DNA of 64,000 bases from Halichondria panicea (lineage: Eukaryota; Porifera; Demospongiae; Suberitida; Halichondriidae). The notes beneath the pieces were generated by a model, which worked only from the letters and a program-made list of their open reading frames with translations, was not told where the DNA came from and made no database searches. Numbering within the stretch: position 1 is the stretch's first letter; every line of letters begins with the position of its first letter. A program made the position numbers and the translations under genes. Below, in pieces: positions 20,626 to 50,300 of this stretch. Location: NCBI RefSeq assembly GCF_963675165.1, contig NC_087377.1:9565122-9629121 (forward strand), given 5' to 3'.

Positions 20626-22175
20626 GATAGTTACCTTTTAGTAATAAAATGTGTGGAGGTTGGTCACAATTGTTAATTAGTCTTCTAATTTACCACCAAT
20701 TCCTACACTAAATGCTCATAGAAGGAACCCGACCCGACCCAACCTGCTGAGTCAGCACTTTTATCTCATTTTTACATTCCTGAGCGTTTATCTATCTTGT
20801 CTTACGACTCTTGTTAGTAAATATTCCGTAACAACATTTTGATGTGTGACCAACCTCCTCTCATAACATGAGTTGATGATTCAATTTATGGTCTGATATG
20901 CTATCTTTCACTAGTCTATACACAGAAATCACTGTTGTACCAACAATCAGAAAGCGTAATTAAAGATCACTTTCTTCTGAAATGAAGGCCAGAGGCTAGT
21001 TACGACAACTACAATTCCCAATAGTACCACTATCAAGGAGGCAGGCCTTATCATGTTGAACTTCTCTTATCTAGCCCTAAAATCATGTACACACACAAAC
21101 ATTAGGGTGGATCTACATGTTCATCTATACATGTACACATTCCATGACAACCAAACGTTTGGTTTCGGAGAGTCATTGTATAGATACTTTATAACTAAAG
21201 CAACCCAATTAAGAGTGTTATTATAATAGTATATTATATATATAATAAAATACTTACATATTTCACAAACGCTATAACTCCAATTAAGGCAATAGAGCAC
21301 ACGCACACATACATACACTCACACACATACATACATACACTCAGCACACTAGAATGGTTTTTATATAATTGACAGGTGAAAGCACATAACTATAACAATG
21401 GGTATGTAGTAAGGCCACCGTGTATCTCACAGTAATGTTGCTGACAAGAAAACAGCTATTCAACAGCAGTAAAGTGAAACTGACTTCTAGTTGTGCTACT
21501 GAATCCTTTCAAGAAGGTACAAACATTTATCATTAGACAGTGGTCAGGACAAACACATGTCATTACAAATTAATTTTGTGAAAGTAAAAGTGGCAATTAA
21601 GTGACAATGCAATAGGGAGAGTGAAAGAGTTGTACATCAGGGATTACCTATTAGGAGCCAGTTGCTATAATTATACCACACTAGCTGGCTATAAATGGCA
21701 ACTTTGTGCTGGGCATGCCATGTTTTCCTAGCACACAGGCAGTCATATGCATATGCTGGCTATAAGCCCATCAAATAAATTACCAAAATTATACCCAGCG
21801 AAAACTGGTTCTTCCTACAGTGCAAGGTTTCCTTCCTAAACACCAACATGCATGCACACAGAATGTGGGTCACTCATAACATGTGTACAGTATATAAGAA
21901 CTGTATTGTGTTTGCACAATACACAGCAATGTGCTTCTGTTGACCTCTAAGAGAGCGGTTTAATTATTGAGAAACAGTTCATGATGCTGTAGAATGTACA
22001 TGTACACCTTTACCGTAAGTTGCTATAACTACACAATAATACAGGAAGCTACACGTACATGTACATACTTAAAACACACACTTTAATACTTTCTTAGCAG
22101 GCACATACATATTCAAGGTATACACGTATATACATATGCAGTTACTATTTTCTGTGATGTACACTAGACAAGTCC
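20626..22175. other. Non-coding stretch downstream of receptor A
   Basis: AT-rich, with a CACACATACATAC microsatellite at about 21300-21345. Probably includes the 3' untranslated region of receptor A. No further repeat of its tail exon was found here. Confidence 0.35.
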
Positions 22176-25100
22176 TCATCCACTCACCCCTTCGCTGGCT
22201 GGAGGAATCACATCCGGACCTCCCTTCTTTTTGGAGGACCTCTTGGGCTTGTCCACCACAGCGTAAGTGTCTCCAGAGACAGCGGTCTCGTGCTCAATCG
22301 TGCTGGGATCCTGGGTAGGAAAGACAAAGCAGTAGTGCATAATAAAAAGCGGTCAGAGTAATACCAAAAGTTCATACACTCTTGGTAATATACACAAAGC
22401 AGTATTCACAAATGGTTCACAAAACAACGCTGTAATTAACTTATACCTGAGGCTTAAACTTGCAGCAAGTGCATGTACTTTACACATACCTGATATAGAG
22501 CTTCTGGTGGAGTTGGCTTTGGTTTTGTGTTTTTCTTGCCCTTTATATCGACCATGGTGTACTGGTCCTCAGTGCCTGGAGCTGCCTGGTGCTCAATGGA
22601 TTTGGGGTCAGCATACAGGGAGTCAGGTGGTGGGGGGGATGAGGTACTTTCACTGTAACGAATAAACACATGGTTAGAATAACTACCAGAGCAGCATAAT
22701 TCCCACAACTCTCAAACAGACATAACATACGTTAGTTTCTCAGAATCTCTTGGTTTTGACTCGCGATCAGAATCTGTGTTCGTCATTGAGATTTCAATAC
22801 AGTTATGTTACATGAAAAAAATTTAACACACGAAAGAAGACAAGAAAGCCAAATTTGTAGAAGCAACTCTTGCTATAATTATGCATAATACGTTTTATTT
22901 ACCTTGTTGGCAGCAACACATGTAGAAGAGCACGCCCACACCAAAACCAAACAGGAACATGAGGAAAATAACGGCCAAAATTGCCCACCATTTTTCTGAA
23001 AGAAATTAAGGACAACACTATATTTTTTTGCATTCATGCAATTCACTTGCTTTCTACAAGTCCGTTGAGGAGAGAGGTCAAGTATCGAGCTGTCAGCACT
23101 CCACAGATAATTCCAATTGCAAAAGCCAGTGCCAGAATAATCACCACAATCAGCCAAACAGCAACTGCAGAAAGCACTTAGCACAATCCTCAACTCATAC
23201 GTAACTTACATGTGCATAAGTTACAATACACACAACTTACACACGCATGATCTCATTCCAGCTGGTTCCCAAGTTCCACCAAGACACGTGATTTGAGGTG
23301 AACCGATCAATTCATAGATAGCCAAGGTACAGCTCAGAGTAGCAGTGGTGATGTGAGACACCGTGCCATTAGTAACCTCCCTGTCCAGCTGCATGGACAC
23401 TCCACTGCCCATGAATGGCGAGAGGGCACTCACAGGGCATGTGTTAAAGTTGAGATTAGTCTGAGTGTCAATTATAATCCCATTATACATCAGAGTTGCA
23501 TGATAACACAGGTTAGTGGATGAAGCCACGGGTGCACAAGCCGAACGAGGCATCAGTTGTATGGTGGATGTGCTGAAATCTGACAAGTTTCGACAAACAC
23601 CATTTCCTTGTTCAAACCGAACAATGAAGTTTCCACTTTGCTCAGAAGCACAGTTTTGACCGAGAGAGAACGTGAGACAATTCATTGTTTCTAGTGTACT
23701 ATTATCAACAACAAAAGGAGTAACTATAGGAGGATAGAATACAGTTACATAACACGAGTCCTCATACTTAAGCTTACCAAAAAATCCTTCAGATACTTCA
23801 CGGCTTGTTCCAGCCACATTAGTCACATTCACAGTGAAAGTGTACACATCATTCTCAACTGTGTCTGTGAGCTGGTAGGATAAATCAGGAACAAATACTG
23901 CACTGCCACTGAGACCCCCAGCTGAAGTGTAGGTTATGGTAGGTTGGGTATTTAGGGGAGGAGTCAACTGAGCAGCCGGGTTACTGCTGCTCTGCACCTG
24001 TGACGTATATAATTTATGAATAATTAGACACCACTACTATTTCATGTAAGTAATCATTCACTTACTCCCTCCATTAAAGTCCATGATCCACTGATTGGCA
24101 ATGACGGATTGGAACAGACAACGGATCCATTGGGTTGAGTTAGTACAGGGGCTGGAAAAATATAAATAAATAAAATGCCAACTGTCTGCATGGTGTTCCA
24201 CTCACATGCTATGTTGAACATCACAGAAACATCGGTGTTGTTCAGCACTCCTGGACACACAGCACTGGTAGCCACAATACTGACAGTGTGAGACCGGGTG
24301 TAGCTCAATCCAATCACAGTGATGCTGTTGTCAGTGACAACCACTGTGCCACTACCTCCAACCACACTGGCAGAAATAGCGACCTCTGTCCCAAGCCTTC
24401 CGCTACTGCTGACCAAGAATCTGAATCGTCCAGTAGTTGAGTCGCCCACCGAATATTCCATACTATCAACAGTTGGAGTGGAAGGAGGACCTGCATGAAG
24501 TGAGAAAAATGACATAAATTGACCATTAAATGTTCACCTGCATAATAGATCATGGTTAAAGATTGCACTAAGGTCATTTCAACTTAATTACATGCGACTC
24601 TCTGGCTCCTACAATTATACCGGCTTTCCTGGTCCATAAAATGAAAGTCCGTAAAGTATCCTTAGGATGGCCTAATAATAATTATACATTATGGTATGAT
24701 AATCTCACCAATAACTTGTATAGTCAAGTTTCCAGCTTGAGGATCAGCTGATAGACTACCAGCATTACAAGTCACCACAGCACCATTCAGTGACTGATCA
24801 ACTGGCAACACAAGAGTAGACGTCCTTGTGGGTTGATTCATAGCACTGACCATATTAATGGTGAATGTTCCACACAGGAGGTCAGCTGGCGTGGTAGTGT
24901 GGGGAGCAATGGCAGTGCACCCTATGGGAGCATCAATTTCCCAACGAGTCACCTCAACACCGTCATGAGAACAGGTTAGGCTGACGGTAGTTCCTGAACA
25001 CACTAGTAGGGACCCATCAGTAACATTGACACCACCGATACTGACTTCTAAACTGCTCACAGCATCTGCATCATAACTGATTTACAATATAATTATACTG

Positions 25101-25237
25101 TTGCATTACCTGCGCCTTTTTGGTGAAGGCCTAACAACACAACGAAGCAAATCTGGGAGAGAACACAACATAACACAGAACAGCTTTGTAAAGTAGGCTA
25201 AATTTACATTACTTACATACACAGGTACATTCTTCAT
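22176..25237 (-). CDS. Receptor A: Ig/FN3/sushi-like receptor with two TM exons and a tyrosine tail
   Basis: Twelve exons reconstructed by splice sites and frame: 25217-25237, 25110-25152, 24709-25065, 24206-24490, 24066-24151, 23778-23997, 23241-23723, 23051-23164, 22903-22995, 22731-22773, 22490-22652, 22176-22310. They sum to 2043 nt, 680 aa, no stop. Residues 1-21 are a signal peptide (ICFVVLLGLHQ core). 22-140 is an Ig domain (SLTCSHDG, RWEI, VVTCNAG). 141-337 are FN3-like (SYTRSHTVSIVA; DVYTFTVNVTNVAG). 338-498 ends in a sushi-like module (ATLSCTLAIYELIGSPQITC). Two hydrophobic exons follow: TM1 (499-521, WLIVVIILALAFAIGIICGV) and TM2 (538-563, AILAVIFLMFLFGFGVGVLF). The tail is a two-unit repeat, each unit having a YxDP...IEH box and a YxxV box (QYTMVD, TYAVVD). 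The intron after TM1 uses a GC donor (GCAAGT). The final GGG is followed by GTGAGT, so another downstream exon could replace the VSG stop. Expected at the cell surface; ligand unknown. Confidence 0.85.
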
Positions 25238-40815: not shown

Positions 40816-41063
40816 GGTGTGGTTTCTTGGCATTGAAATGCAAATACAGTCTTATAATCACAGCGCCACTCTAATAGAAGCGCCAAGTTCACATTTTACT
40901 CCAATTAAACATCAAGTAAATTCTGGAATTATTTTTTGCTGGGGTATGATTTCTGCTCTCACTTTGTAAGAATGTATAGACTGTGGGACGATAGAACAAC
41001 TTGATGTATTTTACATGTACATGCATGTATGCATGCAGCGACTGCTCAATAGTTCTATTCATA

Positions 41064-41112
41064 GTGATGATCATCTTTGCCATCATTCTGTGCTACTGGG
41101 ACAAAACAAGAA
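41064..41112 (+). pseudogene. Possible relic of a transmembrane exon
   Basis: Between a possible acceptor (TTCATAG) and donor (GTAAGT) a short frame reads MIIFAIILCYWDKTR, a hydrophobic run followed by basic residues. It lies just before receptor B and may be a leftover TM exon of an older paralogue. Very short, so weak. Confidence 0.25.
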
Positions 41113-41291: not shown

Positions 41292-44200
41292 ATGAGGATT
41301 GTACCTTCATATGTAAGAGATGTAACAAAAGCTCTGTGTTAAGTTTTGTTTTCTCCCAGATTTTCTTGGTTGTGTTGAGCCTTCACCAAAAAGGCACAAG
41401 TAAGTTAATTACTAACTGGTAAAAGTCCAGAAGCAAGGTACATATAATAGTTTAAATCAGTTGTGATGCAGATGCTGTGAGCAGTTTAGCAGTCAGTAGC
41501 GGTGGTGGCACTGTGATTGATGGGGGCCTCCAATTGTGTCCAGGCACTACCGTCAGCCTCACCTGTTCTCATGACAGCACTAGCGATCTGACTCGTTGGG
41601 AAATTGGTGCTCCCATAGAGTGTACTGCCATTGCTCCCCACACTACCAACCCAAGCATTGCTCTGTGTGGAAATTCAACCATTAATATGGTCAGTGCTAT
41701 GAATCAACCCACAAGGATGTCTACTCTTATATTGGCAAGTCACTGAGTCACTGAATGGTACTGTGGTGACTTGTTATGCTGGTGGTTCTACATCTGATCC
41801 TCAAGCTGGGAACTTAACTATACAAGTTATTGGTGAGATACTATTCTATCGTATAGCGAGTAATTTTCGTGTACATTATCAGGAGTACATTAAGGATAGT
41901 AAGCAACTACTATATACCGTATAGCGGGTATATTTCGAGGGTATATACCCCGGACAGAGTCAGACAACAATGGGTTTGTATGGGCTGTATAGTAGTTGCT
42001 TACTCTCCTTCATGTGCTGCTGATACCATAATTATAGTGCTCAAGAATCCTCAGAATAAATTTTCACGTTTGTTGTGTGTAATTGTAATTATTATATGCG
42101 TTTTAATGCTACTCACCAACAGCTTTTTGGAGTTTCTCCTAGTTTTAATTTTTTTCGTTAACTGCCCTCGAAAAAATTGTGACATTTTGCACCTCACAAA
42201 CATTTCCTGCTATACTCGTACACGAAATGGTGCATCAAACGGAATCAGTAATACTTCCTTTTGTCACCCAGGTCCTCCTTCCACTCCAACTGTTGACAGT
42301 ATGGAATATTCAGTGGGCGACTCAACTACCGGACGATTCAGATTCTTGGTCAGCAGTAGCGGAAGGTTTAGGACAGAGGTCGCTATTTCTGCCGGTGTGG
42401 TTGGAGGCAGTGGCACAGTGGAAGTGATCGACAACAACATCACTGTGACTGGATTAAGCTACACTGGGTCTCACACTGTCAGTGTAGTGGCTACCAGTGA
42501 TGTGTGTCCAGGAGTGCTGAACAGCATCACTGTCGTTCCTGTGGTGTTCAACATAACATGTGAGTGGAACACCAAAGTTGATATTTTTTATTTATTTTTT
42601 CTCAGCCCTTGTACTGACTCAACCCAATGGATCCATTGTCTGTTCCAATCCGTCATTGCCAATCAGTGGATCATGGAGTGCAATGGAGGGAGTAAGTGAA
42701 GGATTACTTACATGAAATAGTAGAACTGTCTAATTATTCATAAATTATATACGTCACATGCAGGTGCAGACCAGCTTTTACCCAGCAGTTCAGTTGACTC
42801 CTCCCCCAATTGGCACACCGATCGTAACCTACACTTCAGCCGGGCGTAATGACAGTGCAGTGTTTGTTCCTGATTCATCCTACCAGCTCACGGACACAGT
42901 TGAGAATGATGTGTACACTTTCACTGTGACTGTGACTAATGCGGCTGGATCAAGCAGTGAAGTATCTGAAGGATTTTTTGGTAAGCTATTTAAATTTAAG
43001 TATGAGAACTTCTGCTATGTAACTGTATTCTTTCCTAGTTACTCCTTTTGTTGTTGATAATAGTACGCTGGAAACAATGAATTGCCTCACATTCTCTCTC
43101 GGTTAAAACTGTGCTTCTGAGCCAAGTGGAAATTTCATCGTTCGGTTTGAACAAGGAAATGGTGTTTGTCGAGACTTGGTTCCATCAGATTTCAGCACAT
43201 CCACCATACAACTGATGCCGAGGTCGGCTTGTGCACCCGTGGTTTCAACCACTTACCTGTGTTATCGTGCAACTCTGATATATAATGGGATTATAATTGA
43301 CACTCGGACTAATCTCAACTTTAACACATGCCCCGTGACCACTCTCTCATCATTCATGACCAGTGGAGTGTCCATGCAGCTGGACGGGGAGGTTAGTACT
43401 AATGGCAACGTATCTCACATCACCACTGCTACTCTGAGCTGTACCTCGACTATCTATGATTTGATTGGTTCACCTCAAATCACTTGCATTGATGGAAGTT
43501 GGGAACCAGCTGGATTGAGATCATGCATGTGTAAGTTGCGTTTAATCTTAGGAACTGAACGGTCTAATTTTTAGAAGCTCTAATTGCATATGCATGTACC
43601 TCCAAGCAATTGGTTCATTGTTTGAGATTGGCTAGTGATTACTTTTCTGCAGTTGCTGTTTGGCTGATTGTGGTGATCATTCTTGTAATACTAACACTGG
43701 CTTGTGCAATTGGATTTGTCTGTGGATTGCTGACAGCTCGATGCCTGCCCTCTCTTCTCAACGGACTTGCCAAAAGTAAGTGAATTAAAATTTATGGTTC
43801 TGTTACAACAGTGAACAAACTCTCATATTTTATTTCAGAGAAATGTTGGGCAACTTTGGTGATTATTCTTCTTGTCTTCTTGTTCTGTTTCGGTGTTGGG
43901 GTGCTCTTTTACATTTGTTGCCGTAAACGAGGTAAAAAGAACAGTTTTTGCTCCTAGCTAGTAGGAGGTGGATGCTTACAGATTTTACCATAATAATTAT
44001 TGTATCTGATGCATGCTGGCCTGTGCTTATACATGTACTTCCTTATAAACGCACAATCATATCATAGACTCGAAACACAAATCAAAGTTGGACACAGTTC
44101 CCGCTGAAACAGGACTCAGTCTGCCAGTTGCGATATACGAAGAACTAGAAGACATACCAGACCCCCACACTCAGCGCAACCTCGTTTATGGCAGTGTTCA

Positions 44201-44297
44201 ACAGTCAACTGACCCAAGAAAACCAATATACGAGGACATTAAACCAGTCCCCCACACCCAGGGAAACGTTGCTTATGGACATGTGCAATTCAATTAA
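41292..44297 (+). pseudogene. Receptor B: close paralogue of A with ITAM-like tail, inactivated
   Basis: Exons parallel receptor A: 41292-41312, 41360-41399, 41472-41832 (Ig), 42272-42559 (FN3-like), 42606-42691, 42764-42980, 43039-43530 (with sushi-like end), 43653-43775 (TM1), 43839-43931 (TM2), 44068-44297 (tail). Splice sites are all GT-AG and intact. Two lesions break it: the Ig exon has one extra base near 41735-41745 (TTGGCAAGTCACTGAGTCAC against TTGCCAGTTGATCAGTCAC in A), and codon CAA of A is TAA at 43104-43106. The ectodomain and TM exons are nearly identical to A, but the tail is unrelated to A's and like C's: VAIYEELEDIPDPHTQRN, LVYGSVQ, PIYEDIKP, VAYGHVQ. A TA-flanked MITE relic (from 41915) sits in the intron after the Ig exon. 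Either a recent pseudogene or an allele-specific null. Confidence 0.85.
41851..42020. mobile_element. MITE relics in the intron of receptor B
   Basis: TACCGTATAGCGGGTATATT at 41915 is a left terminus of the family at 1003; a similar CGTATAGCGAGTAATTTTCG is at 41851. AGGATAGTAAGCAACTACTATA (41893 on) pairs with TATAGTAGTTGCTTACTCTCCT (41987-42008). Confidence 0.55.
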
Positions 44298-47367: not shown

Positions 47368-50300
47368 CTAATGAAACTGCACATGTCCATAAGCGAGGTT
47401 CCCTTGAGTGTGGGGGTCTGGTTTAATGTCCTCGTATACTGGTCCTCTCCGTTCAAGTGGAGCCTGTAATTGTTGAACATGGCTGTACGCAATGTTTTCT
47501 TGAGCCAGGGGGTCTAATATCTCTTCGTATATCACATGTGGCGGTGAACTCATTTCAGTCCCAGTTAATTTCTCAGACCTCCTGCAATTATGCAAAGGCA
47601 ATCCAATCACATGCTAACAAAAAAGTTGTTGAATTACAATGCTTAAACAAGTATATATAGTCAAATGCGTGGGCAGGAATATGGTCTAATCAGTAAGGCT
47701 TCTGTTGACGAACATGGAGATATAATAATAACAGCTGACAATAATTATACATTGAACACCACGCACAGCAGTGAGGACACTCACAAGTACTTAGTTAACC
47801 ATAGATAAAGGAAGAGAGGGATTGGAAACGAAGTGGTGCACGTGATCATTTAACATTAGTTCTACACAGAGGCCTCAAAAACTATCTCAGGACTATTGTT
47901 TGCCGGGTAACTTGCTCGAAATAATTATGTTTCCTCGAGACATCATCTCCTCAGCAATTTATAATACGCCTATTCTGTGAGCCATGTATGGTACTAGCTA
48001 ATGACTGACCACACCCAGTAGAGACGCTTCAAAGTGGGTATTTTATTGCTATAACGTGTAAACTAGAAGTAAGCTGCACAGAATGAGCACATTTGCTAGT
48101 GGTGTGCAGAAATAGACATCAGCTTGGCTACCTTGAAAGCCACGCCCCTTACAGATAAGGCTGCTTAAAACAGCCTCAATTGAACCGCAGGGAAGAGCAG
48201 ATGTTCATTTTTGAGGGTACTTTCATTTCCAATCCCTCTCTTTCCTTTATCTCTGGCTTAACCAACCAATAAAGCTGATAAAATTAAGGCAACTGCAAAT
48301 GAGACAGATCATAGTTTCCCACCGTGGATGTGTTGTGATTGTTATATGAAATTCATTGATGAAATCGAATGTTTATAATGATATTCATGGTATTGAATAA
48401 TGATCCAGCGAACACATAATTCACAGAAGTCTCTGATTAAAGTACACCCTCATTTGGAGTGCATGGCCTAACTATAATGGCCTAACTATATTATATTCCA
48501 GGGTGTCATACAGGATTTTGAAGTGAGGGGGGGGGGGGCCTAAAAGTTACCATCAACTGTATTTTCAATATACCTTGTTAGTATGTTACATATAATAGCT
48601 GGCAATGCTCAGTTATACAACTATATATATAGTACCTGAATGCAAATTGGGGGGGGGGGGAGGTTGAGCCAGAGGATCCCCCTTCTCCCTGTATGACACT
48701 CTGGCTATATATTCAAGAAACTAAGCACAGCACACGCTAGCTGCTATATGCACTATTCCTCCCCAGATAGGAATACAGAGAGTCTGCAGTTCTTACGTAT
48801 TAACCAGAGAAATATGGCTCTAACAATTTGGTTGGTTAGACATGGGGGAAGAGCTAGTCTGGTAAATGTCTTAAGAGTATAAAATCATGCACTGGTCTCA
48901 CGACTTACTCACCCCTTTGGATCTTCATCTTTGACTGATCCTTCATACTTTTTCTTCTGAGTTTCTATACAGTATACAGTGAAGAGGATTATGATAAAAA
49001 CGTAGTATGGCAGCTTACCTATCTGATTATATAGCGTACCACAGGCGTATAAATAAGAATACCTACCCCCACTCCTAAATATAAGTGAAAGCACTGGGGG
49101 CGCTGATGCCTCGGTGTAGGTACCAAAGCTACATAACATAATAGCTAGCTTTTATACACACATTGATTATAATTGTACATGTTATCATGATGATTTTGCT
49201 GCATGTAGAATCCAAAAAATCACAGGGAAACTCAAGAGTGGGTAATGATCGACGATGATTGGTGTTAAAAACAATCGATGCCAAAAGCTAAAATTAATGG
49301 CTGCAAGTCAGCAGAGCCTTGCAGCTCTCTTCTCACTCTTGAAGCTACCAATAGCTAACTACTGAGTAGCAACACTCCGTGAACAAGTTTTGCTACACAC
49401 TCTTCTGAAAAGGCTGCAATGGTAAGCAAAACGAGGCATAACTCGAGAACGAAGCTTTATTTTGAAAATCCACAAATACGAATCCAAGAAAACATGACTA
49501 TAAGCCTATAGAAACTATTACTAGCACTTTATTGATCAGTGAGAAGCTAGAGAGTAATAGCTAGACAGACAAGCAATTGTATGGGTACACAATGTACCTT
49601 TCTTGTTCTTCACACAGCAGTAGCCTACGAGAATACCAATTCCAAGGCCAAACACGATTATAAGAAGAATGACCAACAGTAGAGTGCCACACTTTCCTAC
49701 GTTGAGTATACACGTACATACTTGATCTGTAGCGATATCAATTGACTTACCTTGTTGAATTCCTTTTACGCATATCCTACAAAAACGAGTGAGCAATATT
49801 CCCACAATGATTCCAATAGTAATGGAGAGGAAAACCGCACTTATACTGACAGCTATAACCCAACTTGGAACTATGTGAAAAGAGAGTACAGTTAACAAGT
49901 AATCTATAATACCGTACAGTGCCTTCAGCTTTGAGAGAAAATTTAACCACAGAGTGAGTAGTTGTACTTAATTGTATCTCAAGATTGGAACATTTCTAAG
50001 AAATTGTGCTGATACCATTGTGTAGGTGAATAAATAAGCTACAACCTTATTTGAAAATATTTCCCCAAAAGTTGTTGTAGTGGGAAATCATTTTAGGTAA
50101 AAATGGGGGTGATCGTATAATATATGTGTAACATGAAATATCTCCGGAACTAAAGTATTTCAGGACAACTTTTTTGTATCAAAAGATAGAACATTTATTA
50201 ACAATTAATGTGCAAAAACAATTAGACCTTAGCCGACAAATTTGCTTGAGTTCCATCGCTAAGCGAAAAGGCACCTAAAATATCCCATAAATGAGTATTA

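Follow-up and report, generated by a model that had tools for sequence, protein, structure and literature searches.

The window, that is, the whole stretch of 64,000 nucleotides of DNA that was analysed (C1:9565122-9629121), belongs to a genome of 131 Mb in 39 contigs and is surrounded by an array of related receptor genes on C1, at about 8.6-10.03 Mb. Three of these genes, receptors A, B and C, lie in the window (Table 1). Each has two successive exons, TM1 and TM2, that encode hydrophobic segments. A preliminary description of this DNA had reported six such exons, all in phase 1 at both ends, and every one of them was found in its place. As read from the sequence, phase 1 is open in all of them and encodes a strongly hydrophobic peptide. 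The lengths of TM1 and TM2 (114 and 93 nt in A, 123 and 93 nt in B, 120 and 99 nt in C) are all multiples of three, and each exon has AG immediately before it and GT immediately after it, except TM1 of A, where GC takes the place of GT.

Table 1. Exons of receptors A, B and C, in positions of the window.
Feature	Position	Strand	Remarks
Receptor A exon 1	25217..25237	-	start codon and first part of signal peptide (MKNVPVY), by eye
Receptor A exon 2	25110..25152	-	signal peptide hydrophobic core (ICFVVLLGLHQKGA)
Receptor A E3, Ig V-like domain exon (predicted)	24709..25065	-	phase 1-1; AlphaFold, Foldseek
Receptor A E4, ectodomain exon	24206..24490	-	phase 1-1
Receptor A E5, ectodomain exon	24066..24151	-	
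Receptor A E6, ectodomain exon	23778..23997	-	
Receptor A E7, last ectodomain exon	23241..23723	-	final base T, giving TAA if joined to TM2
Receptor A TM1 exon	23051..23164	-	phase 1-1, GC donor
Receptor A TM2 exon	22903..22995	-	phase 1-1; dN/dS 0.22 in A/L006/L007
Receptor A E10, juxtamembrane exon	22731..22773	-	
Receptor A E11, tyrosine tail exon	22490..22652	-	YADP, YTMV, YQ|DP
Receptor A E12, tyrosine tail exon	22188..22310	-	YAVV; conserved gtgagt next
Receptor B TM1 exon	43653..43775	+	read from sequence
Receptor B TM2 exon	43839..43931	+	join with upstream exon gives TAG
Receptor B tail exon with stop	44068..44297	+	YEEL, YGSV, YEDI, YGHV
Receptor C TM1 exon	49751..49870	-	read from sequence
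Receptor C TM2 exon	49598..49696	-	join with upstream exon gives CGA (Arg), no stop
Receptor C juxtamembrane exon	48913..48964	-	ETQKKKYEGS...
Receptor C tail exon with stop	47368..47581	-	YEEI, YSHV, YEDI, YGHV

The domain names first given to these genes held in part. E3 of receptor A is predicted to be an Ig V-like domain: the AlphaFold model had a mean pLDDT of 82.7, and the 50 Foldseek matches listed were mostly V domains of antibodies and T-cell receptors (best E 3e-5, query TM-score 0.50-0.63). For E7, however, FN3-like matches to the fold were weak and no PDB match was obtained at E 0.001, the Sushi domain of C was a Pfam match below threshold (E 0.19), and spliced A matched no Pfam family above the cut-off. 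N-terminal signal peptides were assigned by eye rather than with a predictor (MKNVPVYICFVVLLGLHQKGADA in A, MRAKIVVTCLILLGTLLIKS in C). Since a conserved gtgagt follows E12, a further short exon is likely in A. About 1.1 kb past E12 and outside the tail exons, a hydrophobic ATG-led stretch (MIRPASLIVVLLGIVVVV...) is seen on the minus strand at about 20980-21060. A stop lies just upstream of it, and it could be the signal peptide of something else.

In receptor B (41463-43600 in the window) the last ectodomain exon is interrupted by an in-frame TAA (43104-43106), and the alignment of its first Ig-like exon to that of A covers only residues 1-86 of 118. It is therefore probably a pseudogene. Upstream of B, at about 41039-41112 on the plus strand, reading by eye showed a TM-like segment (...FAIILCYWDKTR) with gtaagt after it. 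It resembles the single-TM exons of L017 and L022 (...LCYWNKTR), and is probably the relic of an exon from a single-span receptor.

Paired and single spans across the array

The array was found by genome searches with the TM-plus-tail of A, the TM-plus-tail of C, a single-TM exon and a composite TM1-TM2 peptide; the resulting match lists are lower bounds. The census comprises 36 loci, namely A, B, C and L001-L033, with a single-TM match at 8898203 left out. A TM1-TM2 pair is present in 12 of the 36 (A, B, C, L004-L008, L010, L014-L016), one recognisable span in 21 (L001-L003, L009, L011, L012, L017, L019-L026, L028-L033) and a degenerate pair in two (L013, L018); the remaining one, L027, is unassigned to any class. 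Single spans were assigned by a splice-aware scan of phase 1-1 exons only, and in L029 and L031-L033, where the span runs into the tail exon, by hydropathy alone. TM exons were assigned to genes by order and distance, and in L022 and L028 they lie more than 2 kb before the tail. Several single-span loci (e.g. L001-L003, L009, L011, L028) have hydrophobic stretches close to the tail that lack good splice sites, and a hidden second span is conceivable. By eye, the single TM of L019, L020, L023 and L030 resembles TM1 at its start and TM2 at its end; these spans are possibly natural fusions of the pair.

That the pair is more than a chance arrangement is borne out by its recurrence in 12 loci and by degenerate or fragmentary remains in a further three. 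Wherever the matches listed show a trace of one exon, in 15 loci (the 12 pairs, L013, L018 and L034), the other is traced as well, and no orphan TM1 or TM2 was seen in these lower-bound lists. In L013 (C1:10034582-10035093), a gene that looks degenerate, a TM1-like half passes into a TM2-like half with a break of frame, and in L018 the second span of the pair contains in-frame stops. L034 (C13:6177600-6186600) consists of C-like TM and juxtamembrane fragments adjoining a retroelement, and was rejected as a second, independent pair. An intronless retrocopy revealing a spliced form was also considered, and no TM1-TM2 match listed was without the intron. At least one disabling change was present in the compared exons of four of the 12 two-TM genes (B, L008, L010, L015), the other genes having been checked in part of their exons.

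A third TM exon restoring parity was rejected. No third spliceable, phase 1-1 hydrophobic exon was found after TM2 by the splice-aware scan and hydropathy, the latter covering the last 1.9 kb before the tail and thus only part of the TM2-tail interval of L014. Hydropathy showed hydrophobic stretches between TM2 and tail in L004, L015 and L016, without good splice sites, and the stretch past E12 of A lies outside the tail behind a stop.

The tails are distributed across these classes. The A-type tail (YADP, YTMV, YQDP, YAVV) is found behind the A-type pair (A, L006, L008), behind the C-type pair (L004, L005) and behind a single unrelated span (L001-L003, L009, L011, L012), the first tail exon being 82-92% identical to that of A (57% in the degenerate L013). 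B/C-type or related tails stand behind the pairs of B, L007 and L010 and of C and L014-L016; related ones also occur behind several kinds of single span in 15 single-span loci. With the same tail type behind different spans, tails and spans have been shuffled among these genes, while the two spans stay together. The array is thus a natural experiment, in which nearly the same tail stands behind one span in some genes and behind two in others. The ITIM-type consensus is [SIVL]xYxx[ILV]. Read by eye, the tail of C appears to fit it (VIYEEI, IAYSHV, LAYGHV); the tail of A does not match the full consensus.

Splice junctions and sequence constraint

Because the introns around TM1 and TM2 are in phase 1, the first base of a junction codon is supplied by the exon before it. 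For the six A-clade genes that base is always T, and the first two bases of TM2 are AA or AG. A join that leaves out TM1 therefore gives TAA in A and TAG in B, L006, L007, L008 and L010 (upstream end of L010 read from sequence); three of the six, B, L008 and L010, carry a disabling change elsewhere. A TM2-only join yields CGA (arginine) and is open in C, L004 and L005, with the upstream end placed by eye, least certainly in L005. In L014 and L015 an FN3-like exon reads openly into TM1, to which it is fused, and a Sushi-like exon was not found between the two. L016 falls outside the junction test, since about 3 kb upstream of its pair revealed no ectodomain. Because of the stop at the join of the upstream exon with TM2, or of the fusion of TM1, TM1 looks obligatory in eight of the 12 genes (A, B, L006-L008, L010, L014, L015), given a normal upstream exon. 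A TM2-only receptor is excluded in these eight unless the upstream exon is skipped too. The original suggestion that either exon can be skipped is therefore correct as to the reading frame, which is kept, but not as to the product: in A and B only TM2 is freely skippable.

The donor sites show no sign of regulation, except for the GC donor of TM1 in A. This donor, gcaagt at 23045-23050, makes the intron between TM1 and TM2 of A a GC-AG intron; the other 11 pairs have GT. The donors of TM2 are ordinary (scores 6.6-10.3). A weak TM2 donor had been suspected from the bases at +5 and +6 as a sign of skipping, and was dropped after scoring of the whole site (donors were scored and acceptors of other exons left out). 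The symmetric phase of the TM exons is no evidence of regulated splicing, since other modules of gene A (E3, E4, the E5 and E6 pair, E7) are also phase 1-1. The TM1-TM2 introns measure 43-67 nt across the 12 pairs, and other introns of gene A measure 44, 54 and 54 nt. Their length is therefore uninformative on regulated splicing, as had been conceded at the outset, and a steric barrier due to a short intron was rejected on the same ground.

Selection was estimated by the Nei-Gojobori method, with genes carrying a disabling change left out. In A/L006/L007 dN/dS was 0.44 for TM1 and 0.22 for TM2, and in C/L004/L005/L014/L016 it was 0.78 and 0.15, respectively; when B, L008 and L010 were added to the A clade, the values became 0.53 and 0.26. 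The excess of pS over pN reached p<0.05 in 10 of 11 pairs for TM2 and in three of 11 for TM1, the pairs being overlapping and not independent. Pairwise alignments of TM1 were ungapped, and a deletion in TM1 of A is misplaced in them. Low silent divergence of TM1 was considered as a possible mark of a splicing enhancer. In A/L006/L008 it was lower in TM1 than in E7 (pS 0.10 vs 0.29); no such lowering was seen in B/L007/L010 (0.17 in TM1, 0.15 in E7).

For the tail, selection figures cover the A-type only, which is under stronger constraint in two-TM than in single-TM genes. In the two-TM genes A/L004/L005/L006 dN/dS was 0.13 for E11 and 0.11 for E12 (0.16 and 0.13 with L008), and in the six single-TM genes 0.57 and 0.39. 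The tail tyrosines are kept in 20 of 20 positions in five two-TM genes and in 21 of 24 in six single-TM genes, three of which have lost one. Judged from these substitution patterns, TM2 evolves as coding sequence, and TM2 and the A-type tail act as protein in the two-TM genes. Since TM2 is constrained and, with a normal upstream exon, readable only through TM1 in the A clade, proteins with both spans probably exist there.

TM1 and TM2 do not clearly look like tandem exon duplicates, and this origin was set aside. At the DNA level the score of their similarity was reached by none of 500 shuffles in L007, by 11 in B, 17 in L016 and 30 in L005, and by 64-173 in the other eight of the 12 genes. 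In protein, at most 25 of 500 shuffles reached the score in six of 12 genes (L004 1, L014 2, L015 2, L005 12, C 18, L010 18), a nominal similarity, but TM1 scores no better against TM2 than against unrelated single spans.

Topology and alternative readings

A secreted N-terminus followed by two spans places the tail outside the cell. This paradox had been pointed out before, and it is real and now stronger: an A-type tail stands behind one span in six loci and a B/C-type-related tail in 15, and constraint on the tail is higher in the two-TM genes. The loop between the spans has a net charge of +2 to +4, with basic residues in all 12 pairs, and basic residues directly follow TM2 in 11 of 12, the exception being A (QQ). 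Both spans, on these residues, look like type I anchors. Basic residues after both spans, which had been remarked in C, are indeed present there but are not peculiar to it.

In the best reading, to which we give a probability of roughly 0.4 and to which a constitutive two-span receptor is a close rival, TM1 is a fixed anchor and TM2 is optional. The products would be receptors at the cell surface, made up of a signal peptide, an Ig-like ectodomain and a tail with tyrosine motifs. TM1 would serve as the fixed membrane anchor, and TM2 as an optional second span. Splicing of TM1 directly to the tail, without TM2, would give a cytoplasmic tail that is able to signal, as expected of the single-span sisters. 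When TM2 is included, a TM1-TM2 hairpin would leave the tail on the wrong side of the membrane and give a non-signalling form. The skipping of TM2, the topology and the signalling are the parts of this scheme that we infer. An optional TM2 is favoured because TM1 is fixed where it can be tested, the tail would be inside on skipping, and TM2 would be retained for the two-span form. The evidence on this side consists of the stops at the upstream-exon/TM2 join in 6/6 A-clade genes, the fusion of TM1 in L014 and L015, the constraint on TM2 and tail, the full set of tail tyrosines in the two-TM genes with an A-type tail, the similar tails behind one span in 21 of 36 loci, the lack of a spliceable third span in the scans described above, and the published parallel of Botryllus fester. 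Against it stand the ordinary TM2 donors, the occurrence of TM1 and TM2 together in 15/15 loci, and the better conservation of TM2, which fits constant use. The low share of exon skipping in the sponge Amphimedon, reported as 1.8% of alternative-splicing events (PMC4432959), also counts against it. The further idea of TM2 as a splice-controlled topology switch is rather unlikely. Here an exon of 93-99 nt would move an ITIM/YxxV-type tail from the cytoplasm to the exterior, and one gene would supply both a receptor that signals and a silent counterpart, throughout the large array of what is taken to be a sponge. If true, exon-controlled reversal of the tail would be a simple way of silencing a receptor with its outer face unchanged.

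That both exons are always included, giving a constitutive two-span protein whose tail is extracellular, or inside if one hydrophobic segment fails to span fully, is a serious though somewhat doubtful possibility. It would account for the joint tracing of both spans in every locus with any trace among the matches listed, for the stronger constraint on TM2 than on TM1, and for ordinary donors and TM1-TM2 introns no shorter than others in gene A. The basic loop and the basic residues after TM2, which leave both sides of TM2 mostly basic, are also consistent with it, as is the rarity of exon skipping in Amphimedon (PMC4432959). Yet the tail would then lie outside, although the A-type tail is strongly constrained in these genes and similar tails stand behind a single span in 21 loci. 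By a rough hydrophobicity scale, moreover, each of the two segments should be able to insert.

Short forms ending after TM2 or TM1 by intron retention, with TM2 belonging to tail-less decoys and the tail coming from other transcripts, are quite unlikely. Keeping the TM1-TM2 intron would bring an immediate stop (...SK followed by stop) in 6/6 A-clade genes, and keeping the next one a stop after 2-17 codons in the A clade; in Amphimedon, moreover, intron retention accounts for more alternative-splicing events than any other type (45%; PMC4432959). However, it is the donor sequence (GTAAGTGA) that supplies the early stop, which may be incidental; conservation is lacking for the read-through after TM2, and the TM1-TM2 intron is open in frame in C and L004.

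Mutually exclusive TM exons, as in exon 17 of Dscam1, are very unlikely: the two exons are adjacent and phase-matched, the TM2-only join is open in C, L004 and L005 (upstream ends by eye, least certain in L005) and TM1-TM2 protein similarity is nominal in six of 12 genes, but that join is a stop in 6/6 A-clade genes, TM1 is fused to a domain exon in L014 and L015, the similarity in DNA is for the most part no greater than in shuffled sequences, and TM1 scores equally well against unrelated single spans. The preliminary proposal of regulated or mutually exclusive exons thus fails, as far as mutual exclusion goes and given the normal upstream exon, for A, B, L006-L008, L010, L014 and L015; for C it is possible.

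Comparison with known receptor systems

Tandem TM exons in sponge receptors were not named in the titles and opening lines of abstracts of the literature searched, partly with narrow searches. The two-TM genes differ from each of the systems below in having two TM exons together with a tyrosine tail common to single-span sisters.

In Drosophila Dscam1, an Ig/FN3 receptor, the TM region is encoded by either of two alternative versions of exon 17 (PMC1397879). These are mutually exclusive tandem variants, whereas duplication is not evident here. Such an arrangement has each exon alone joining its flanks openly; TM2 alone meets a stop in 6/6 A-clade genes and joins openly in C, L004 and L005.

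By published description rather than sequence homology, the closest analogue is the fester/uncle fester (FF) family of Botryllus schlosseri. Fester is described as having an Ig and Sushi ectodomain and three predicted TM segments from exons 8-10 (PMC12065747, PMC3549757). The likeness extends to the signal peptide, successive TM exons, a multigene locus and duplicated module blocks, and perhaps to the Ig-type and Sushi ectodomain (here Ig V-like in E3 of A, and Sushi below threshold in C). The three TM segments of fester place the tail inside when all are used, and that tail is described as short, without known signalling motifs; here, unlike fester, each gene has two TM exons and a tyrosine-motif tail, and three successive TM exons were not encountered. 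The first TM exon of fester (exon 8) is reported in all splice variants sequenced, and six of its eleven exons are optional (PMC3549757). From the published exon counts we infer that the later TM exons are among the optional ones. The parallel is nevertheless weaker than it looks, as far as the analogy goes. According to the account available in PMC12065747, bulk transcriptomes, whether from short or long reads, do not match the fester splice variants obtained by PCR, splicing of uncle fester is not extensive, and genotype-specific fester splicing falls mostly between the Ig/Sushi region and the TM.

The fester co-receptors of Botryllus (FcoR), family neighbours of fester, are described as multigene type I receptors with Ig/Sushi domains, a single TM and a long tail that bears ITIM, hemITAM or YxxI/L/V motifs (PMC12065747). 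They resemble the 21 single-span loci of the array; the sharing of one tail type by one- and two-span members is not mentioned for FcoR in the published passages concerned. The C1 array comprises shuffled receptor genes that combine Ig-like ectodomains with TM segments of several types and with tails carrying tyrosine motifs. Through its parallel with a tunicate histocompatibility receptor that has TM exons in tandem, it may be regarded as a candidate self/non-self recognition complex.
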